This document shows positions 906 to 37,244 of a stretch of 43,704 nucleotides of DNA, one piece after another. The notes under the pieces were generated by a model. The model was not told the origin of the DNA. It worked only from the letters and a program-made list of their open reading frames with translations, and did no database searches. The DNA is from Methanosarcinales archaeon (lineage in GTDB: Archaea > Halobacteriota > Syntropharchaeia > Alkanophagales > Methanospirareceae): the NCBI GenBank assembly GCA_030611585.1, contig JAUWPM010000006.1, positions 1 through 43,704 on the forward strand, written 5' to 3'. Both the position numbers and the translations under genes were made by a program. Every line of letters starts with the position of its first letter. Position 1 is the first letter of the stretch.

Positions 906-3858
<2,953 letters not shown>

Positions 3859-3888
3859 GCCCAGATGAAATCAGAGTTGTAAAGTGCG
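3859..3888 (+). other. 3' half of 23S processing stem (BHB)
   Basis: Complement of 871-902, see that entry. Confidence 0.9.
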
Positions 3889-4001
3889 CTTTTAGCCAAT
3901 AGCCTAGTAGGGACTAGGGGTTAGGGAATAGGGATTAGATAGCAAGTACGGCACTGGATACCCTATTGGCTATTCCCTACTTCCCTATTGAGACTCTTTG
4001 C

Positions 4002-4073
4002 GCCAAGGTGGCGGAGTGGCTACGCGGTTGACTGCAGATCAGCTATACCCCGGTTCAAATCCGGGCCTTGGCT
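4002..4073 (+). tRNA. tRNA-Cys (GCA)
   Basis: GCCAAGG/CCTTGGC acceptor, anticodon loop CTGCAGA, U73 discriminator, GGTTCAAATCC T-arm. Confidence 0.93.
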
Positions 4074-4276
4074 TCCTTGGCGTTTGGCTCTCTCTATTTA
4101 TGTGTTTCCTCTTTTATGTTTTGTTATATCTAACTACGCGCAATCATCGCTTTGAAACGGAAAATATCGGTTCGGGATACTTGGAATGGGAGACTACGCA
4201 AAGGTTTTATTAGGGGGATTACAATAATAAAGCAGTCTGATATTTATCGTGGTTGGCGACGGCGGAGTGGAAGAAG

Positions 4277-4543
4277 ATGGGAATAAAAGTTTACACAACG
4301 AAAATTTGCCCAAATTGTAAGAAAGTCAAGGAGTTCTTAACAGCGGAAGGCGAAGCGTATGAGGAAGTGGACATAACGACGGCGGAAGCGCTGACGGAGT
4401 TACGAATGCAAGGGGTTTTCACGCTTGTTACCCCGGTTGTTCAGGTGGGTTCGACTTTTCTAACTGATAGCGATCTGTTTAACGGCGATGAGTTGCGGAA
4501 AGATAGGATTAAAGAAGTGATAAGAGAAGAGGTGGAAGCATGA
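4277..4543 (+). CDS. Glutaredoxin/NrdH-like redoxin (start probably at ATG 4277 rather than 4253)
   Basis: MGIKVYTTKICPNCKKVKEFLTAEGEAYEEVDI: CPNC redox motif at end of beta1; overlaps nrdD by ATGA. Confidence 0.85.
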   Translation: MGIKVYTTKICPNCKKVKEFLTAEGEAYEEVDITTAEALTELRMQGVFTLVTPVVQVGSTFLTDSDLFNGDELRKDRIKEVIREEVEA

Positions 4544-6831
4544 AAAAGGGCTTTATTGTGGATAACGGTACGGTGCAGACCTCGCTGGACGGCGTGAAGT
4601 TGCGATACCCAAAGGTGCGAACCAGCGACGGGCACATGCTGGAGTGGGATAAGGAAGCGATAGTAAAGCAGCTTTTGCGTGAAACGAAATTGAGCAAGGA
4701 GTTTTATGGTAGCTCGCCGATAGACGAGGACACGGCGCGGGAGATTGCGAAGGAAGCGGCGAAGCGGATAAGGGTAATGGGGATCTCGCAGCTTTCGGGC
4801 GCGTTAGTGCGGGAGATAGTGAACCAGATTTTGTTGGAGGAATATCACAATCAGGAGTGGCGGAACGTCTGCACGCGGGTGGGCACGCCGGTGTACGATG
4901 CGCATCTGATTGACATTGGCGAGGGGTTCGAGGCGCAGGAGAACGCGAATTTGCAGGATAATGCAGAGACGTCGCACAAGAAGAAGGCGGACAAGATTTG
5001 CAAGGAGCAGTATTTGCTGTTGTTACCGCCGAAGTTAGCGGATGCGCATCTCAGCGGCGATTTGCACATTCACGACCTCGAATATTTCGGTACGCGAGGT
5101 TTTTGCCAGGATTGGGACCTCCGGTACTTCTTCTATTACGGGTTGATGCCGGACGGTTCAGGGACAAAGGCGTCGGTCGCGGGACCGGCGAAGAAAGCAG
5201 AAGTGGCGATTCTGCACGCCGTGAAGATTTTGGGCAGTGCTCAGACCAACTTCGCAGGGGGGCAGGGCTTCTTCAATTTCCTTACGTTCATCGCGCCATA
5301 TTTAGAAGGACACTCGTACGAAGAGATCGAGCAACTGATGCAGATGTTCGTGTACGAGATGACGCAGATGCAGGTTGCTCGCGGCGGTCAGTTGGTATTC
5401 TCGTCAGTGCAGCTCACGCCGGGGATACCGAAGATCTGGAAGGACAAGCCGGCGGTTTACAGAGGCGAGGTGTGGAACGGCGAGAACGTGCCGCTTCGGA
5501 CCTACGGCGAGTTTGAGCGTGAGGTGCGGTTGGCGTTCAAGGCGTTGATGAACGTTATGCTGCAGGGCGATTACTGGGGTAAGCCTTTCAACTTCCCGAA
5601 GCCTGAGATCGCGATCGAGCCTGATTTCCTTAAAGAGGATGTGGCGTTTAATGAGAAGAATCCAGATTTGCCGACTTATGAAGAGCTTTATGATTCGGCG
5701 TTTGAACTGACGGCGAAGTACGGCACGCCGTATTTCGATAATAAGATACCTGAGTACCGGGGTGCGGGCGAAGGCGTTTCGTGCTATCAGTGCTGTGCGT
5801 ACAGTTTCAAGACGTCGCCGGACGATGCGGACTTCAAGGATAAGATGTATTTCAATAACGGCACGCACTTCACGATGGGGGGCTGGCAGGTAATAACGCT
5901 GAACTGCCCACGCGCGGCGTACCGAGCGGACGGCGATGACGACCGGCTGATTGCGGAACTGAAACGGCTGATGGAGAGTGCGGTGGAAGTGTTGAAGGTG
6001 AAGAAGCGGTGGATGAAGCAGATTATTGAAGCTGGGCGAATGCCGTTTGCCACGCAGCAACCGAAGGATCCACACACGGGCGAGAAAGGTTCGATGGCGG
6101 TTCATCTGGATGAGCTGGTGTATATTATCGGCGTGGTGGGTCTAAACGAGATGGTGCAGTACCATTACGGGAAGCAGATGCACGAGGACAAAGGCGCGTT
6201 ACGGCTTGCAGTACGCGCAATGACGGAGATGGAGTTGTACACGAAAGAGCTGTCGGAACGCGAAGGCATGGAGATCAGCTTCTCACGGACGCCTGCGGAG
6301 ACCGTTGCACAGCGATTCGCAGTGGCGGACCTACTGAACAAGGAATTTAGAGATAAGGTGCTGAGCGTAGTGAAAGGCGATGCTGAGCGTGCGCTTGCTC
6401 TTATACACGAGACACGGGACTTGCCGATCTACTATACGAATGGTACGCACGTACCTCCGAATGCGGCGGTCACGCTTGCCGAACGGATAAATATCGAGCA
6501 TATCTTCTTCCCGATCGTTGACGGCGGGGACATCATGCACATATTTTTGGGTGAGGGGTATCCCGATCCGCGCGGTGTAAAGAGTCTTGCACTTAAAATA
6601 GCGGAGAATACGCAAACGGGCTATTACGCATTTACAAAGGATATGACTGTCTGCACGGATTGCGCGCACGTAACGATGGGGTTGAGGGAGGAGTGCGAGA
6701 AGTGCGGGTCTACGAATCTTGATTACATTTCCAGGATAACGGGGTATTTGCAGGCGGTGAGCGGCTGGAACGAGGGTAAGAAGCAGGAGTTAATGGATCG
6801 GATGCGGTACGGTGGGAATGAGGTGAGGTGA
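4540..6831 (+). CDS. nrdD: Anaerobic (class III) ribonucleoside-triphosphate reductase
   Basis: 763 aa; YQCC Cys motif, C-terminal zinc Cys pairs (CTDC, CEKC), glycyl-radical loop RITGYLQ; ATP-cone-like N terminus. Confidence 0.95.
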   Translation: MKKGFIVDNGTVQTSLDGVKLRYPKVRTSDGHMLEWDKEAIVKQLLRETKLSKEFYGSSPIDEDTAREIAKEAAKRIRVMGISQLSGALVREIVNQILLEEYHNQEWRNVCTRVGTPVYDAHLIDIGEGFEAQENANLQDNAETSHKKKADKICKEQYLLLLPPKLADAHLSGDLHIHDLEYFGTRGFCQDWDLRYFFYYGLMPDGSGTKASVAGPAKKAEVAILHAVKILGSAQTNFAGGQGFFNFLTFIAPYLEGHSYEEIEQLMQMFVYEMTQMQVARGGQLVFSSVQLTPGIPKIWKDKPAVYRGEVWNGENVPLRTYGEFEREVRLAFKALMNVMLQGDYWGKPFNFPKPEIAIEPDFLKEDVAFNEKNPDLPTYEELYDSAFELTAKYGTPYFDNKIPEYRGAGEGVSCYQCCAYSFKTSPDDADFKDKMYFNNGTHFTMGGWQVITLNCPRAAYRADGDDDRLIAELKRLMESAVEVLKVKKRWMKQIIEAGRMPFATQQPKDPHTGEKGSMAVHLDELVYIIGVVGLNEMVQYHYGKQMHEDKGALRLAVRAMTEMELYTKELSEREGMEISFSRTPAETVAQRFAVADLLNKEFRDKVLSVVKGDAERALALIHETRDLPIYYTNGTHVPPNAAVTLAERINIEHIFFPIVDGGDIMHIFLGEGYPDPRGVKSLALKIAENTQTGYYAFTKDMTVCTDCAHVTMGLREECEKCGSTNLDYISRITGYLQAVSGWNEGKKQELMDRMRYGGNEVR

Positions 6832-21371: not shown

Positions 21372-21479
21372 TTACTTTACAAATCGGTATTAGTTCGTAA
21401 GGCAGTTTCAATTTTGTCTCCATTTTGTCTTACCTATCAATCCCTTCTTCTTTTGAATATAAAAACTCTTCTTATTAAA

Positions 21480-21605
21480 CATATTTCTGCTATTCGGAAC
21501 TGCTAATCTTAGCGTGCCACCACAACCCCCACCACCTCCTCCGTCAGCCCGTACAAATCATAAACCAGCCGGTCAATCTGCGCATCAACAATCTTTATCA
21601 TCCCC
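21480..21605 (-). pseudogene. Orphan 3'-end fragment of a type IIG restriction-methylase gene (relic R1)
   Basis: Minus frame: IKIVDAQIDRLVYDLYGLTEEVVGVVVAR*, matches C terminus of 34356..37244 (IKIVDAQIDQMVYDLYGLTEEEVKVVEAAF); shares post-stop flank with R3. Confidence 0.85.
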
Positions 21606-23550: not shown

Positions 23551-23735
23551 TTCTCGCCTTTGCATAAACAGATGGTTTTTCCAGCTTGATTTGATTTGAT
23601 ACTCCGACTCCGAACCCCTTCTGCTCTGAGACTCTTTTCATCTCTCTTCAGCGATAAGATAATTTAGTTCCAACGTATTCTGAAAGGCAATTCTTTGGGG
23701 TTCAAGAATTTTTCTGCCGCCGGATACAGTTCTCT
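23551..23735 (-). pseudogene. Gene-relic family copy A
   Basis: Shares 'gataagataatt.a.ttccaacgtattctgaaaggcaattctttggg.ttcaagaa.ttttctgccgccggatacag' with copies B-F. Confidence 0.8.
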
Positions 23736-24246: not shown

Positions 24247-24425
24247 TGCCTTCGTTTGATTTTAAAACCCAAAACACATCTGCTCTGAGGCTCTTTTCGC
24301 CTCTCTTCAGTGATAAGATAATTCACTTCCAACGTATTCCGAAAGGCAATTCTTTTGCGTCTTCAAGAAATTTTCCACTGCTGGGTACAGGTCTTTTTCG
24401 TGAATTTCATGTTCCTCTTCGGGCA
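24247..24425 (-). pseudogene. Gene-relic family copy B
   Basis: Same relic sequence (ctgctctgaggctcttttcgcctctcttcagtgataagataattcacttccaacgtattccgaaaggcaattctttt...). Confidence 0.8.
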
Positions 24426-24499
24426 CTTAAGACAGAGCCTGATTCGTATAAAGCCTACACCCTTTAATATTTTGAAATATATCTTAAAAGTGAGAGGGA

Positions 24500-25384: not shown

Positions 25385-25630
25385 CCAAAGATATAAACGT
25401 AATCGGCATATTTCAAGAGTTCTACGGCTTCGCCAACGGCTTTGCCGAAACTCCGGCGTTTTAGTTCCTTTTTACCTTTGCATAAATAGATGGTTTTTCC
25501 AGCTTGATTTGATTTGACACTCCAAACACATCTGCTCTCAGGCTGGTTTTTTCTCGCTTTGGGGATAGTTCAGTTCCAACGTATTCCGAAAGGCAATTCT
25601 TTGGGGGGCTTCAAGAAATTTTCACCTATT
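25385..25630 (-). pseudogene. Gene-relic family copy C (long)
   Basis: Minus strand encodes ..TSLRADVFGVSNQI.. and (shifted) ..GKTIYLCKGKKELKRRSFGKAVGEAVELLKYADYVYIFGS. Confidence 0.82.
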
Positions 25631-26999: not shown

Positions 27000-27290
27000 G
27001 ACATAATCTGCGTATTTCAAGAGTTCTACGGCTTCGCCAACGACTTTGCCGAAACTCCGGCGTTTCAGTTCCTTTTTCCCCCGCACATAAATAAATGAGC
27101 TTTTCACCTTGATTTGATTTTGGTACTCCGAACCCCTTCTGCTCTGAGGATGGTTTTACCTCTCTTCAGTGATAAGATAATTCACTTCCAACGTATTCCG
27201 AAAGGCAATTCTTTTGCGTCTTCAAGAAATTTTCCACTGCCGGATACAGGTCTTTCTCGTGCGTTTTAAGTTCCTCTTTGGGCACTTAAG
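27000..27290 (-). pseudogene. Gene-relic family copy D (long)
   Basis: Includes ..RGKKELKRRSFGKVVGEAVELLKYADYVY.. and the upstream relic block shared with A-F. Confidence 0.82.
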
Positions 27291-27362
27291 ACAGAGCCTG
27301 ATTTGTATAAAGTCTACATACACCCTTTAATATTTTGAAATATATCTTAAAAGTGAGAGGGA

Positions 27363-27825: not shown

Positions 27826-27827
27826 AA

Positions 27828-27945
27828 GATAATTCACTACCAACGTATTCTGAAGGGCAATTCTTTTGTGTCTTCAAGAATTTTTCTACCAACAGATACA
27901 AGTCCTTTTCGTGCATCTTCTCCAAATATGGCATTTCCTTCTTTT
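27828..27945 (-). pseudogene. Gene-relic family copy E (short)
   Basis: gataattcactaccaacgtattctgaagggcaattcttttgtgtcttcaagaatttttctaccaacagatacaagtccttttcgtgcat. Confidence 0.75.
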
Positions 27946-28639: not shown

Positions 28640-28832
28640 CGTTTATATCCTGTTTATCTATTCGGAATGGCTGTTCTTAACGCCACCCCACCATCCTCTC
28701 TTCCTCTTCCGTCAGCCCATACAAATCATAAACCAGCCGGTCAATCTGCGCATCAACAATTTTTATCTGTCGTTCGTAAAGCTCTTTATCGCGCTCCATC
28801 TTTGCAGCGTGGTGTTTCTCACTTTAAAAGTA
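28640..28832 (-). pseudogene. Orphan 3'-end fragment of type IIG gene (relic R2)
   Basis: Minus frame EKHHAAKMERDKELYERQIKIVDAQIDRLVYDLYGLTEEEERMVGWR*. Confidence 0.85.
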
Positions 28833-28881
28833 TCGGGCTCTTCCCCTTTTGCATTCCATTGTCTGTAAAGCAGATGTACAG

Positions 28882-29504: not shown

Positions 29505-29720
29505 GTTTCTGTATTTTAGTTCCTTTTTTCCCCGCACATAAATAAATGAGCTTTTCACCTTGATTTGATTTTAAAACTCCAAACACATCTGCCCTGAGGC
29601 TCTTTTCGCCTCTCTTCAGCGATAAGATAATTCACATCCAACGTATTCTGAAAGACATTTCTTTTGTGTCTTCAAGAAATTTTCCACTGCAGGGGACAGG
29701 TCTTTTTCGTGCATTTTAAT
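29505..29720 (-). pseudogene. Gene-relic family copy F
   Basis: Minus strand begins ATGCACGAAAAAGACCTGT..: MHEKDL..VENFLKTQK..SEYVG; same block as A-E. Confidence 0.82.
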
Positions 29721-29722
29721 TA

Positions 29723-31849
29723 TCACGCCTCCCAATGCATCTGTATATACTCATGCGTTTCTCTGCTATCCAAAAGTCTTGTTGTATTACCTGCTCTGAT
29801 GTAGAATTCTTTTAGTCCATCACTACCTTTGAAAAACACCGGTTGTGGGGCTCTTTCGGTTGTTATTTTGCAGACGCTTTTTCCTTCTTTCTCTTCGAAA
29901 TCAATATGGGCATATTTTGTGAATTCCGGGCCTAAATAACTAGACATTAAAGAAATAACTGCTTGCTGGAAACCATCTATGGTTCCTTTTTTAAGCGTCT
30001 TTAAATCACTTTCTATTCCATAAACCTGTCCATCATCCATTACCCCGATAAGTAATGTCCCACCTTCACTATTCATGAAACCCGCCACCGATTTTACTAT
30101 AACCTTCTCAAGTCCTTTATTGACCTGTTCATTTCGAATATCCCACCGCAATGAAGATTTAAACTCTATCGTTAGCCTTTCGCCTGTATTAATGAAATCA
30201 TCAAGTGTCATAGGGCGGGGTGCTTCGCTTTCCTGCAGCAGTTGATTCCTAAAGTCGTTAATTTTCTCTGCTATCAGCTCTCTCCTTTTCTTTAAAAAAT
30301 CCTCATAGCGGTCAATTTCCCAGAGATTTTCATCCATGGGGATGAGTTGTTTCTCCAGAGCACCTGGAAATCTTTTCTCTATTTCCGGGAAATAGTCTTT
30401 TGGTATTCTGTTTGAAATCTCCTTGACATTCGTATCTGCTGTTAAGAATGCCCTGTTAGCGATTTCATTCATAATTTGTTTATGTATATTGTTTCTAGAG
30501 TCATAGCCACCTTCTTTGCGTAGCCGTGAAGTTGGAAAGATATGATGGCTCTGGATTGAGTATGGTCCGCTCTGTTTTGTATCCAATGGGATACCATTTA
30601 ACCAGTCGGTTGCACCGTTGGATTTTACCAAGATGTAAAGCATTCGGTAAAGTGGGTGCTGAATAATGCGACCCTCGAGGTCACTGGGTTTAACCTCTAT
30701 TCTGCCTCTCTGGTCAATAATAGCGTCGATCAACTCTTTCCAGGGTTCTGAATTTTTATCCACGATGGAAACATCGGAGTCTAATCGTTGATCGGTCTGC
30801 CCTGTATATCGCCCCCATATATGGGCCGCATAGAGCCAGCGGATGGCATTCTTAAGCGATTTCTCATTTGGGAACCTGTCACCATTTCTGGACAAATACA
30901 CAACCAATGGGAAAAGGGTATTTGTTGAATTTAAATCCTCTGTTGAATCAATAAACGCATGCTTTGGTAGGATGGCAATGAGATAACTGAGAATCTTTTC
31001 GAGCTTCGCCCATCCATCTTTTAATTCACTCGCAGGTGTTTTGTGGATGGTCTCGAAGAGCCCTCTACCCTTTACAATTCCTACGAGACATCTTACCAGA
31101 AATCCAAGATCAAAGTAAAAATGCGTTCCTTCGAGTTCTTTTATTTTCGCTTTAATTACCCGCCTTGCATGGGGCCATTTCCCCGTTATATGTGTGAGTG
31201 CGAGTTCGGCATCGGTGAGTTTTGTGCCCAAACTGTTAACGCGATCAAAAACATCTATCGCATCGTCAATAGATGCATCTGGTGGCACGTATTGTACTGG
31301 ATATCCCCTCTCTAATATATTTTTCAGCTTAGTAAGGTTGTCGTTGTATTGCTGGGCAAGTCCGAGAGGATTCCCACCTTCGGGCGATCCTTGCTTTGCA
31401 ATCTCGAAGACATTGATCGGATTATCTGGGTTGAAGCAATTTATAACTTCCACCCATAGAGGGTTATTTGCCATCAAGAGGGGTTGGAAGTACAGAAATT
31501 CACCCGTTTCAAGATTGAAATAGAGGTGCCTTGGATCGTGTTTAATGTCCCTTTCTACATAATACGGTGGGATTTCATTTTGAGTGAAAAGATAGAGGGT
31601 TGTTAGCCTTTGCTGACCGTCAAGAATTACCGCCTTTGACCCTAACTTCTCCCGATCCACCGCGAGATTCTTTATTTCTGGAGGTTTTTCTGTTTTCCAG
31701 AAAAGAAGGCTACCAGTAGGATATTTGCGAACAAGCGAGACCATCAACTGCTTTGACTGTTCAAGCGTCCAGACAAATTCCCTTTGAAACTCTGGAAGAA
31801 CGATGTCCTTCTTTTTTATGTCCGCCATTAATTCACCAATACTATTCAT
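29723..31849 (-). CDS. DUF262 (GmrSD-like) + HNH + AlbA_2/Schlafen-like fusion protein
   Basis: VLPEFQREFVWT; VILDGQQRLTTLYLF (DGQQR); YSIQSHHIFPTSRL (HNH); C-term TIEFKSSLRWD..FMNSEGGTLLIGVMDDGQVYGIE..FYIRAGNTTRLLD (AlbA_2). Confidence 0.88.
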   Translation of the reverse strand: MNSIGELMADIKKKDIVLPEFQREFVWTLEQSKQLMVSLVRKYPTGSLLFWKTEKPPEIKNLAVDREKLGSKAVILDGQQRLTTLYLFTQNEIPPYYVERDIKHDPRHLYFNLETGEFLYFQPLLMANNPLWVEVINCFNPDNPINVFEIAKQGSPEGGNPLGLAQQYNDNLTKLKNILERGYPVQYVPPDASIDDAIDVFDRVNSLGTKLTDAELALTHITGKWPHARRVIKAKIKELEGTHFYFDLGFLVRCLVGIVKGRGLFETIHKTPASELKDGWAKLEKILSYLIAILPKHAFIDSTEDLNSTNTLFPLVVYLSRNGDRFPNEKSLKNAIRWLYAAHIWGRYTGQTDQRLDSDVSIVDKNSEPWKELIDAIIDQRGRIEVKPSDLEGRIIQHPLYRMLYILVKSNGATDWLNGIPLDTKQSGPYSIQSHHIFPTSRLRKEGGYDSRNNIHKQIMNEIANRAFLTADTNVKEISNRIPKDYFPEIEKRFPGALEKQLIPMDENLWEIDRYEDFLKKRRELIAEKINDFRNQLLQESEAPRPMTLDDFINTGERLTIEFKSSLRWDIRNEQVNKGLEKVIVKSVAGFMNSEGGTLLIGVMDDGQVYGIESDLKTLKKGTIDGFQQAVISLMSSYLGPEFTKYAHIDFEEKEGKSVCKITTERAPQPVFFKGSDGLKEFYIRAGNTTRLLDSRETHEYIQMHWEA

Positions 31850-31894
31850 TTTGTTTTTCCTCCTCGCATGAATCCATGTTTGACATTAAGTATA

Positions 31895-32581
31895 TTAAAA
31901 CTTTTCTGACACAGGATTCTCTGGTAGGGCGTCCCGCACTACAAATTTCACTTCGTAGTACTTCAACTGGATATTGTGGTTAACAGAAACCGCATAATCA
32001 AGCCATTCGTCAAACTCGTTCACAATTATAATCCCTCTGACGTTCTCACCGTTCTTTGCTAAATTCCGGTTAATCCAGCCCATGTATCGTTGAATCTGAC
32101 CCACTACTTTATCGCTCTCTTTTCCCTTCTTTGTTTCAATCACGACAAAATCCCGGTTCTTATCAGTGCACAGAAGGTCTATGCGTCCAGCACTCTTTGT
32201 ATCGTATTCCTTTTCCTTCAGTTCAAGACCCTTTTCTATCTGCGATGGATCGCTTGCCAGATAGTTTATCAAATCTTTTTCCAAACTCACCGAATAGGGT
32301 GGAATCTCTATATTCTCATCTTCTTCATCAAACTCCTCTGCTAACCCGTAATAACCTTTTTCAAGTCCTTCTGTGGATAAAACACCTTCTTTTTTGAGTT
32401 TGCTTAGAAGCGAAGTAAGTCCTGGTGGCGTTCTGCGTCCCTTTTTGACATGTTCGGGTTGGCTGCTCCTTACAAATTCGATAATCCCATCTCTGTGGGC
32501 TGTGTGCTCTTTCTTTTCGTTTCTCAGATAGTACACAATCAAATCTCTTACACGCATTTTTTCTAAATCAACCATTTTCAT
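31895..32581 (-). CDS. HTH + NucS/RecB-like nuclease
   Basis: N-terminal wHTH-like region; AGRIDLLCTDKNRDFVVIETKKGKESDKVVGQIQRYMGWI (D..ExK..QxxxY). Confidence 0.85.
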   Translation of the reverse strand: MKMVDLEKMRVRDLIVYYLRNEKKEHTAHRDGIIEFVRSSQPEHVKKGRRTPPGLTSLLSKLKKEGVLSTEGLEKGYYGLAEEFDEEDENIEIPPYSVSLEKDLINYLASDPSQIEKGLELKEKEYDTKSAGRIDLLCTDKNRDFVVIETKKGKESDKVVGQIQRYMGWINRNLAKNGENVRGIIIVNEFDEWLDYAVSVNHNIQLKYYEVKFVVRDALPENPVSEKF

Positions 32582-32631
32582 CTTCTACCTCCTTTTTTCT
32601 CCTTTTCCCCATTGACGCTGTGAAACACACT

Positions 32632-33102
32632 TCAAATCTCATCAACATTTCTTAATACTTCTTCGATTAGTTCATCGTCCAAATAGTAACCAGCCTCTAA
32701 TAGCTCATCTATACATTCCTTAACACTTCTTATGATGCCTTTCTTTTTGGCTTCGACAAACAAACCAATTGTACCTCTGATTTCAAGTCCAAGTTTCCTT
32801 GCAGCATTTCTGCCCCTTTTTTCGTCAATTAATATTCGAGCACTTGAGTGCAGTGCCAGAGCAATTGCCTCCGCCTCTCCTTCATCAACCACGAGCATGA
32901 GTGCCTTCACCAATTCGGTGTTCTTCACTTCAGTAGCATTAATCCAGGGATTATCACTGAATATAATAGTCCCTTCTGGTTTTCTCCGTAACTCTCTCGC
33001 GACAGCTTCCGGAACCAAAACTTCTTCATGCACCTCTTTAAGGATAAAAAGTAACCTCGCTTTAAACAACACCACCAAGGGACCGGTATCAGAAACGATC
33101 AT
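32632..33102 (-). CDS. PIN domain toxin (DUF3368-like, VapC-type)
   Basis: MIVSDTGPLVVLFKARLL..VVDEGEAEAIALALHSSARILIDEKRGRNAARKLGLEIRGTIGLF. Confidence 0.92.
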   Translation of the reverse strand: MIVSDTGPLVVLFKARLLFILKEVHEEVLVPEAVARELRRKPEGTIIFSDNPWINATEVKNTELVKALMLVVDEGEAEAIALALHSSARILIDEKRGRNAARKLGLEIRGTIGLFVEAKKKGIIRSVKECIDELLEAGYYLDDELIEEVLRNVDEI

Positions 33103-33359: not shown

Positions 33360-33612
33360 AAAAACTTTTCTATCCTATTTTTGCTATTCGGCACTACTAA
33401 TCTTAGCGTGCTTCCACCACCTTCACCTCCTCCTCCGTCAGCCCATACAAATCATAAACCAACCTGTCAATCTGCGCATCAACAATCTTTATCTGCCGTT
33501 CGTAAAGCTCTTTATCCCGCTCCATTCTCACCTCGTGGTATTTCTTCTGCAGTTCGAGCATGTTCTCAACCAAAGAAACGAGTTTATCGTGCAGGGCTTT
33601 TGAAATGCCTGT
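33360..33612 (-). pseudogene. Orphan 3'-end fragment of type IIG gene (relic R3, longest)
   Basis: Minus frame ALHDKLVSLVENMLELQKKYHEVRMERDKELYERQIKIVDAQIDRLVYDLYGLTEEEVKVVEAR*. Confidence 0.88.
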
Positions 33613-34355: not shown

Positions 34356-37244
34356 TTAAAAAGCTGCCTCCACCACCTTCACCTCCTCCTCCGTCAGCCC
34401 ATACAAATCATAAACCATCTGGTCAATCTGCGCATCAACAATTTTTATCTGCCGTTCGTAAAGCTCTTTATCCCTGTCCATTCTCGCCTCGTGGTATTTC
34501 TTCTGCAGTTCGAGCATGTTGTCCACCAGAGCTACAAGTTTATCGTGCTGCGCTTTTTCGGTAGGGTTTGAGAAATCAATGGTGCGGATCGGGAGCTTTT
34601 TAAGATTCACTACTTTTACTTCCGCAAAAACGCGACCTTTCTCTGGGATTAGACCCTGATACCACCAAGAAATGAGTTTTGAATTCAGTAAACCCAGAAG
34701 ATAAGGGTACGATAGTCTATTGTCATTTATGCGTAAGTTATGTACATTTTTAAGGGACAAATATTGGTTGGTATCTATATTGGCAATAATCGAATCAGCA
34801 GTCTGTCGGATAACAATTTTGACTGGATCACCAAAAGGTGCTTTGTATCGAGGTTCGGCAAGCCAATCGCCGTAGCTTATCCAACGCTCCTTTTGCAATT
34901 GCCAAGTGTATCGGTGAAAATCACGTCCCATAATGTATTGACGATAAGTTATATCCTTCTTGAGGTCAGCATCAAATACCCGGTTCTTCGCTGTATGTTG
35001 ACTCTGTGGCGGCTTACCCTTACCTCTCCGGTAGGGCGTAAGACCACAAATTATAGTGGATAAATCTCCAAGACGTGGGTGTTCATCAGATATCCTTTTA
35101 AAAAGGGCTTGTGCAGAGCCGTACTTAGATTGGCACAGATTTGATTCCTTCTGAGCGAGTATTTGGTCCTGCGAAAGAATTTCCACACATCCTTCGAATG
35201 AACTGGGTTTGTCGGATACTTCTTTGAATTGCATTTGTGCATTTGTTGATTTTTCATTTACAACTATTTCTATGCAAGTTTCGACGGTAACTTTTTCAAA
35301 AACAGGACTTCGGAATAGCACTATTTGGTCAACGATAATGTCTGAGAGAAGGAATTTTCTCAGATCAACATATGACGGCATATAGAGCCATGTTGAAGGC
35401 AAAATAAAACCTTGCCGGCCACCTATCCGAATGATGTTTAAAGCTTTAATGAGGAAGAGCACAAAGGAATCTGTAATTGGAACAGGCACTCGATATTTAT
35501 GTGAGAGAAAGTGACGAACATCATGAGAAAACTCAGCTCCGTAAGGCGGATTCCCAATCACTACATCAAACCCCCCTCGTTTCATAATCCCCCCAAACCC
35601 CTTCTCCTTGTCCTCCCAATCGAACACATTAACCCGCCTCATCTCCGCCTCGTCAAACAGAGCCACCTGCCCCGTACCGTAATAATCCGACCCAATCAAC
35701 GAGTTCCCGCACTTAATATTATCCCCAAGATTCGGCAGCACGCCCTCCAGCCCCAACTTCATCTGCTGGTCAACGCTCTCCATACTCTCGTGCTCCAGCA
35801 CCTTCAGCAGCAAACTCAATTTCGTTACTTCCACCGCCTGCGGGTCAATATCAACGCCAAACACATTATTCAGCAGGATCCGCTTCTTCTCCCCGGTAGT
35901 CAAATACCATTCGTTCTCGCGAACCTGAAAGACTGCCTCCTTATGTCTCTTCGGCTCGTTACTCACGTACCAATCCAAATGATACCGCAGCAAATACGTG
36001 TACGCGCCAATAAGAAAGCTTCCGGAACCACATGCCGGATCCAGAATTTTAATCTCCTCAATCTCCTCCGGCGTCTTCCCCTTCCCCGCAACTAAAACTA
36101 ATTTACCCACCGTGTTCTTGACGATATAATCCACGATATATTGCGGCGTGTAATACACGCCACCCGCCTTTTTAACTTCCGGCTTTGTCTCCACCTTCGC
36201 CTGATGCCCCGCCGTCAGCCGAATGACCTTACCTAAAAACTGCTCGTACACGTTCCCTAAAATCTCAACGCCAAGAACTGAAAACTCATAAGGCGACTTC
36301 GGGTAATACAAACTCTGGATGATCGTTTTCAAGATTTTGTCATCAATTCTCAACGTTCCCGTTATCTGATCCACACCAAAATCGAATATCCCGCTGTCGT
36401 ATTTCGATTCCGCAAGTTTAAAATGGTTCACCAAATGCGTGTAAACCTCTCCGCCGGATTCTGATTTCGTCTGCAACTGCCCGTACGGTTCGATTCCACG
36501 GTCTTCACAAATCCGCAGGAAAATTATTCTATCAATGATTTTCTGCACTGCATAGTTCAACTCGTAAATACTCACATCAGGATTCCTTAGCGCGATATTC
36601 TTCGCCAGCAGTTCACGCCAGCTCTCTATCTCTTTTAGAAATTCGCTATCCACTTCCGCAGTGCCCTTCTTGCCCTTGGTTGATTCCGCGTACCGATCAA
36701 AGCTGCCTTTGAGCACCGCTTCCTTTGAAAAGACATCGTATATCTCATCAAACTTATCGAGATATTCTTCAAACGTGTAGTACGCAATTCTACCCACACT
36801 GGATTTATCTTTTTGATTGGGCTTGATTCGGCAGTCGAAAACCGAGAACTCCTCGAAATCCGTTACTACGGACAACGGCAGTTTCGCACTCCACGCATAC
36901 CGTCTCAACTGATATGAAGGGCTGACGTCCTCTTTTATGTTCACCGCCGGTTTCTTCGCCTCGACAAAGAACTTACTCTGACCGCCAATTCTGAAACTGT
37001 AATCCGGTGCTGGTGTCGAACGCCCGACTTTTATCGTATCCTCGTGAACGACCTCTTTGTACTGCTCTGCATAGCCCTGTCTATTGCTCACGTCCCAGCC
37101 CAGCGCTTCAAAGAACGGGTTAATGAATTCTTGTCTTGTCTGCGTCTCGTTATACGTTGGCCGTTTGTAAACGTCAATATTGTACCGGAACAGCTCAACG
37201 AGTTTTCTCACCTCTTGTTTTGCCTGTTCTTTTGTGTACGTCAT
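34356..37244 (-). CDS. Type IIG restriction-modification enzyme (nuclease-methylase fusion)
   Basis: N-term PDYSFRIGGQSKFFVEAKKP (PD..ExK); KAGGVYYTPQYIVDYIV; ILDPACGSGSFLIGAY (SAM motif I); VVIGNPPYG (motif IV); C-terminal TRD-like region. Confidence 0.93.
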   Translation of the reverse strand: MTYTKEQAKQEVRKLVELFRYNIDVYKRPTYNETQTRQEFINPFFEALGWDVSNRQGYAEQYKEVVHEDTIKVGRSTPAPDYSFRIGGQSKFFVEAKKPAVNIKEDVSPSYQLRRYAWSAKLPLSVVTDFEEFSVFDCRIKPNQKDKSSVGRIAYYTFEEYLDKFDEIYDVFSKEAVLKGSFDRYAESTKGKKGTAEVDSEFLKEIESWRELLAKNIALRNPDVSIYELNYAVQKIIDRIIFLRICEDRGIEPYGQLQTKSESGGEVYTHLVNHFKLAESKYDSGIFDFGVDQITGTLRIDDKILKTIIQSLYYPKSPYEFSVLGVEILGNVYEQFLGKVIRLTAGHQAKVETKPEVKKAGGVYYTPQYIVDYIVKNTVGKLVLVAGKGKTPEEIEEIKILDPACGSGSFLIGAYTYLLRYHLDWYVSNEPKRHKEAVFQVRENEWYLTTGEKKRILLNNVFGVDIDPQAVEVTKLSLLLKVLEHESMESVDQQMKLGLEGVLPNLGDNIKCGNSLIGSDYYGTGQVALFDEAEMRRVNVFDWEDKEKGFGGIMKRGGFDVVIGNPPYGAEFSHDVRHFLSHKYRVPVPITDSFVLFLIKALNIIRIGGRQGFILPSTWLYMPSYVDLRKFLLSDIIVDQIVLFRSPVFEKVTVETCIEIVVNEKSTNAQMQFKEVSDKPSSFEGCVEILSQDQILAQKESNLCQSKYGSAQALFKRISDEHPRLGDLSTIICGLTPYRRGKGKPPQSQHTAKNRVFDADLKKDITYRQYIMGRDFHRYTWQLQKERWISYGDWLAEPRYKAPFGDPVKIVIRQTADSIIANIDTNQYLSLKNVHNLRINDNRLSYPYLLGLLNSKLISWWYQGLIPEKGRVFAEVKVVNLKKLPIRTIDFSNPTEKAQHDKLVALVDNMLELQKKYHEARMDRDKELYERQIKIVDAQIDQMVYDLYGLTEEEVKVVEAAF

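Follow-up and report, generated by a model that had tools for sequence, protein, structure and literature searches.

The 708-aa protein encoded on the minus strand at positions 29723–31849 of the window (the whole 43,704-nucleotide stretch of archaeal DNA that was analysed) is best read as a stand-alone member of the GmrSD/BrxU family, in which a modification-dependent type IV restriction enzyme and, as second effector, a C-terminal Schlafen domain share one polypeptide, with the nuclease gene beside it being a separate, mobile accessory cassette; we give this reading a probability of roughly 55%. A preliminary description had proposed that the two genes form a two-gene defence operon. Their adjacency, their domains and their setting within a defence island hold up, but obligate pairing does not, as the partner of the nuclease varies and the fusion is found alone. 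By its 16S/23S rRNA the window is archaeal. Both minus-strand reading frames and their spacing were confirmed: the nuclease gene (228 aa; open reading frame, Pfam and structural model) occupies 31895–32581, and a 45-bp gap (31850–31894) containing a GAGGAGG ribosome-binding site precedes the ATG of the fusion.

A GmrSD enzyme joined to a Schlafen-type domain

The domain composition of the fusion, described earlier as a DUF262 domain with a DGQQR motif, an HNH-like segment and a C-terminal AlbA_2/Schlafen-like domain, is borne out by Pfam, PADLOC, profile comparisons and predicted fold, the HNH segment less firmly than the other two domains. Specifically, Pfam places GmrSD_N (DUF262, a ParB/Srx-like NTPase; PF03235, 1.9e-27) at residues 4–220 (31190–31840) and SLFN_AlbA_2 (PF04326, 6.6e-17) at residues 557–693 (29771–30181), and both domains are kept in all 33 aligned relatives, which are 26–87% identical. 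The match to the DUF1524-type GmrSD_C/HNH region at residues 427–527 (30269–30571) is weak and below the cut-off (PF07510, 0.029; 13 of the 33 relatives match at E≤0.01), and its motif is HHIFP (residues 435–439) instead of the usual DHIYP, with N465 and N474 further along. This region is supported as a probable HNH by three matches that span it: PADLOC HEC-05, the best PADLOC match (5.8e-51, residues 3–534, profile positions 27–593 of 600); a comparison of the fusion-family profile with BrxU (7p9k; 2e-39, positions 3–532); and a Foldseek search with the AlphaFold2 model (mean pLDDT 88.9), in which BrxU was the first match (1.1e-13), albeit with a low whole-chain TM-score of 0.34–0.42. Pfam found no AAA_5/McrBC domain, and hence no McrB GTPase or McrC, in the fusion or the nuclease, and an NCBIfam search of the fusion returned no family.

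The candidate active-site residues are strongly conserved. The DGQQR motif (residues 77–81; 31607–31621), whose nucleotide-binding role is known from earlier work (PMC10952713), is invariant in all 33 relatives, as are N465, E557, E562 and K564, while H435, H436 and D605 are each kept in 32. The C-terminal domain matches the profiles of SLFN14, SLFN12, SLFN11 and SLFN13 and, by Foldseek, the folds of DIP2311, SLFN5, SLFN13 and the tRNase domain of SAMD9. Within it, E562 is the aligned counterpart of SLFN14 E211, which carries a mutation in the solved structures of that protein. The acidic/lysine site E557-x4-E562-x-K564 (30158–30181), together with D605 as its third acid (30035–30037), corresponds to the nuclease site of SLFN11, SLFN13 and SLFN14. 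Furthermore, the dN/dS of the fusion against its 87% identical relative is 0.12 (0.14 in the GmrSD part and 0.09 in the AlbA_2 part) and that of the window nuclease against three relatives is 0.11–0.16; values of this size point to purifying selection, so both reading frames are more than chance occurrences.

Conservation of this kind is no proof of catalysis, because AlbA_2 domains in general seem to share the E..EFK signature, and some of them are treated as DNA-binding and not as nuclease domains (PMC6299218). The domain might be a DNA- or RNA-binding specificity module that brings the GmrSD enzyme to its target, a part that EVE or DUF4357 may play in other GmrSD fusions. Such a role would be in keeping with the description of AlbA_2 as DNA-binding in pAgo proteins (PMC6299218), with the description of the SLFN5 structure as DNA/RNA-binding, and with the gain by GmrSD of other C-terminal domains (PMC4619093), rarely EVE (PMC7641849). 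However, the complete invariance of E557, E562 and K564, the near-invariance of D605 and the fold match to the SAMD9 tRNase domain speak against it, and we regard a pure binding role as possible but rather unlikely.

It is informative to compare the fusion with the systems that it most resembles. Relative to BrxU and the GmrSD type IV enzymes (DUF262 plus DUF1524), it aligns over nearly the full length of BrxU and has the DGQQR and a probable HNH region, but it adds the Schlafen AlbA_2 domain, departs in the HNH motif and has no adjoining BREX locus. The PADLOC HEC-05 models, which are 566–621 positions long, cover the GmrSD portion, but their matches stop short of AlbA_2; experimental tests of several HECs are reported (PMC12988326), and the fusion architecture was not identified among those tested. 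The Schlafen/AlbA_2 RNases (SLFN11, SLFN13 and SLFN14, the SAMD9 tRNase domain and prokaryotic Schlafens) share the fold and the E-x4-E-x-K...D site, but there the domain is attached to a helicase, a STAND ATPase or an HTH and not to a GmrSD enzyme. Likewise, the ParB(DUF262)-HNH-HEPN fusions (VNG7073; PMC3710099) combine a GmrSD-type enzyme with an RNase effector, but have HEPN where the window fusion has Schlafen. The earlier statement that the architecture matches no nameable system thus stands in part: no named match was found, but the GmrSD half is already catalogued as HEC-05, whereas its joint with AlbA_2 is not. A 2015 survey of GmrSD proteins listed DUF4268, DUF4357 and DNA_binding_1 as extra domains, AlbA_2 not being among them (PMC4619093), and no description of a GmrSD/DUF262-Schlafen fusion was found in the literature searched, which comprised open-access published papers. 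GmrSD enzymes, the HEC-05 subgroup, Schlafen effectors and GmrSD-HEPN fusions are already known; what appears to be new is the GmrSD-AlbA_2 joint, which is broad and testable and has a less fixed partner than first thought.

Distribution and probable repeated origin of the fusion

The fusion is not peculiar to the window locus. Among the matches listed in a scan of genome contigs there are at least 26 full-length relatives of about 700 aa, 31–65% identical to it, in hosts that include Chloroflexota, Planctomycetota, Pseudomonadota, Bacteroidota, Myxococcota, Elusimicrobiota, Aenigmatarchaeota, Woesearchaeota and others, and matches covering 99% of the fusion length lie on plasmids of Haloquadratum walsbyi (PL100), the halophilic archaeon DL31 and Sinorhizobium meliloti (pSymA), where they are annotated only as DUF262 or DUF2081 proteins. 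Outside the Methanophagales, a search with the nuclease HMM found no nuclease beside the fusion at any of the 26 listed loci, and none adjoins it on the three plasmids. Nor does another partner take its place: in PADLOC and Pfam tallies of 59 flanking proteins each neighbour family occurs at most four times, the recurring neighbours being restriction-modification (RM) subunits and helicases. At one locus (L096) the fusion is followed after 16 bp by a 1028-aa protein (2737–5820) whose own AlbA_2, at the N-terminus, is a close relative of the fusion's. The viral contigs searched with the fusion and with the nuclease yielded no relatives of either, and the phage records searched contained plain GmrSD pieces alone.

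The phylogeny of the GmrSD part suggests that the joint was made repeatedly. On a tree of 100 rows, 37 of them fused (a quick tree with long branches), the fused state needs six changes, all of them forced by well-supported branches; a single origin of the fusion was set aside on these grounds. The changes would correspond to about five gains, in which AlbA_2 joined some five separate GmrSD lineages, and one loss, in two haloarchaeal proteins without AlbA_2. One group comprises more distant fusions (in G111, G121 and G301) that lie between hsdS-like and AlbA_2/hsdR-like genes, a context that reads, from gene order, as a type I RM operon; for this group the AlbA_2 tree agrees with the GmrSD tree, placing its AlbA_2 nearest to stand-alone haloarchaeal AlbA_2 (98/87). 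Two further fusions (G323 and G066) lie beside what reads, from gene order and one helicase match, as a DISARM-like helicase pair. At two other loci (L115 and L117) the AlbA_2 domain groups with AlbA_2 of the main-clade fusions, so that existing fusions may have exchanged domains there.

The window's own genome encodes, on contig C81 (13355–15586; L057), a 743-aa STAND-like ATPase whose C-terminal AlbA_2 is similar to that of the fusion. AlbA_2, recurring at the C-terminus of several GmrSD lineages and of this protein, thus has the behaviour of an exchangeable module, and this speaks for an effector role.

The NucS-like nuclease and its changing neighbours

The 228-aa protein has a NucS_C PD-(D/E)XK domain (PF01939, 3.2e-13) at residues 101–189 (32015–32281), where the model pLDDT is mostly 75–95, and matches the solved NucS structures 2vld and 5gke in fold. 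The D..ExK..QxxxY signature noted earlier was matched, with D135, E149, K151, Q162 and Y166 invariant in 13 of 13 aligned sequences; the N-terminal winged helix-turn-helix suggested alongside it found no Pfam match, and the model pLDDT there is about 30–45. Although it shares the PD-(D/E)XK core and D135, E149, K151 and Q162 with NucS/EndoMS and PADLOC PDC-S02, its N-terminal module differs and it scores only 61.7 bits against the NCBI NucS equivalog, far below the cut-off of 216; it is therefore classed, on sequence grounds, as NucS-like and not as NucS. The N-terminal module (residues 1–92, 32306–32581; the suspected winged helix) resembles that of another protein: over residues 1–81 it shares 70% identity with the start of an EVE-domain protein encoded beside McrB and McrC in G171 (contig WSZT01000080.1 of isolate GLR107, a Methanophagales (ANME-1) archaeon of the same family as the window genome). 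That locus (L058; contig C187, 4236–8594), in which an EVE domain replaces the nuclease behind the shared N-terminal module and which adjoins genes for a McrB-like AAA_5 protein, McrC and a HEPN_Swt1 protein, is by its gene content a type IV locus of the McrBC kind in which one module has been exchanged.

Close copies of the nuclease (81–90% identical) occur in eight genomes of the window's archaeal family and in none of the other genomes of the class that were searched. The gene 3′ of the nuclease is co-directional in all eight and, where its start is clear, lies 6–63 bp away, but its identity changes: it is the fusion in the window genome (G000), G171 and G220, a plain GmrSD in G215 and G269, a DUF4268 protein (PDC-S11) in G264, a 560-aa protein in G250 and a NarE-like protein in G225. 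The 560-aa protein (L074, 6106–7788) belongs to no known family and has, as read by eye, an RNAISHG (RX4H) HEPN-like motif; DUF4268 is a known add-on domain of GmrSD (PMC4619093) and is found here as a gene of its own that can take the second position behind the nuclease. Blastn comparisons show that DNA homology to five other contexts begins 16–27 nt before the ATG (32597–32608, giving an upstream edge at 32582–32608) and reaches to the stop codon or its vicinity, extending in G250 to the start of the next gene. The nuclease gene is thus, to judge from these borders, a sharply bounded mobile cassette and an optional neighbour of the fusion.

The notion of a dedicated nuclease does not survive these comparisons, since it precedes the fusion in three of the eight family genomes and other genes in five, and the conserved order across genomes reduces to three genomes of one family, where nuclease and fusion lie in one homologous block (88–96% DNA identity, in pieces in G220) and hence share one transfer history. 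An obligate two-gene system, in which the nuclease would be an effector or regulator needed by the fusion, could draw on the 45-bp gap and common strand, on the adjacency kept in G171 and G220, and on the nuclease standing ahead of a co-directional gene in every close copy, mostly at 6–63 bp. Against it are the 26 listed full-length fusions and three plasmid copies that have no adjoining nuclease, the other genes paired with the nuclease, the halting of DNA homology at the nuclease gene's own borders in most other contexts, and the G171 copy, where much of the N-terminal part of the nuclease is missing and an in-frame stop interrupts it, the adjoining fusion being open for 645 codons (a draft assembly error is possible). 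The stand-alone occurrence of the fusion disfavours such a system, and we consider it improbable. A different possibility is a modular defence cassette in which the nuclease gene always comes first and the second gene is exchangeable; the nuclease would act as a shared degrader of DNA or, by way of its N-terminus, would regulate a toxic partner. The eight genomes, in which five or more kinds of second gene lie downstream of the nuclease and all point the same way as it, are consistent with this, as are its position as the first gene after a divergent gene in G264 and G250 and the sharing of its N-terminal module with the EVE protein next to McrBC. Yet all examples come from one archaeal family, several nuclease copies are broken, and neighbours get shuffled in this graveyard of genes, so that adjacency to defence genes is to be expected; this arrangement is conceivable without being the likelier outcome. 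The same surroundings, full of gene fragments, and the broken copies of the locus in G220 and G171 might even suggest a decaying remnant without present function, but both window genes are intact with all active-site residues and their dN/dS values are 0.09–0.16, making decay very improbable.

The island setting proposed for the locus was borne out: within the 25–37 kb stretch Pfam and PADLOC identify toxin-antitoxin-type neighbours (PemK/MazF, HicB-like, MqsA-like, DUF5615 and DUF3368/PDC-S70) and a type IIG RM enzyme. The DUF3368 PIN-like gene (32632–33102) lies on the same strand, 50 bp upstream of the nuclease, and matches PDC-S70 (1.8e-42), a candidate described as archaeal in origin (PMC12988326). 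Repeated pieces of 129–193 nt, 65–92% alike, at 21471–21599, 28683–28875, 33409–33601 and 34365–34557 correspond to the 3′-terminal part of the type IIG RM gene (34356–37244), are present again in related genomes, and are apparent remnants of RM genes strewn across the island. A second repeat has six copies (23591–23701, 24250–24459, 25564–25625, 27109–27318, 27826–27919 and 29559–29768), one of them directly downstream of the fusion; it matches the 5′ part of a gene (MHEKDLYPAVEKFLK...) of which relatives have a longer version (L075 and L076), and its copies are possible recombination seams for cassette exchange. Scans for sigma-70 promoters and terminators gave results at or near chance level and carry no meaning for archaea.

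A possible mechanism and its implications

A working model can be drawn from characterized relatives of each part. In it, the DUF262 domain would bind NTP at DGQQR and, together with the helical middle region, detect modified invading DNA, which the HNH domain would nick or cut; these steps are modelled on BrxU/GmrSD biochemistry (PMC10952713). The DNA-detecting or DNA-cutting state might then release or activate the Schlafen E/E/K/D site, which would cleave RNA (probably tRNA) and stop growth if restriction fails. This back-up step follows the Schlafen RNases, which have been named back-up effectors in BREX (PMC12839542), and the precedent of a GmrSD-type protein fused to an active HEPN RNase (PMC3710099). 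The NucS-like nuclease, which could be co-transcribed with various defence genes (here the fusion), would probably degrade DNA that has already been cut. In this model the defence function of the fusion, the type of DNA modification, RNA as the Schlafen target, the coupling of the two effectors, and the co-transcription and cooperation of nuclease and fusion are inferences. Against it, some GmrSD relatives (SspE) belong to phosphorothioation systems and do not act on modified phage DNA.

More tentatively, and with somewhat less than even confidence, we propose that the fusions make up a widespread type of single-protein immunity not described before, whose one chain couples a restriction enzyme for modified DNA to a Schlafen tRNA/RNA nuclease, the DNA being cut first and translation shut-down serving as a fail-safe; the joint would have formed about five times on different GmrSD lineages and would be served in Methanophagales by a swappable NucS-like cassette. 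Should the Schlafen domain prove to be an active RNase, restriction of modified phage DNA and an abortive-infection back-up would be united in one polypeptide, and type IV restriction would be linked to the Schlafen antiviral RNases that animals use too. The family is accessible through named, sequenced carriers such as Sinorhizobium meliloti pSymA and Haloquadratum walsbyi PL100, and the nuclease loci, with a first gene that stays constant and a second that changes, amount to a natural experiment through which the modular defence operons of ANME archaea can be studied.
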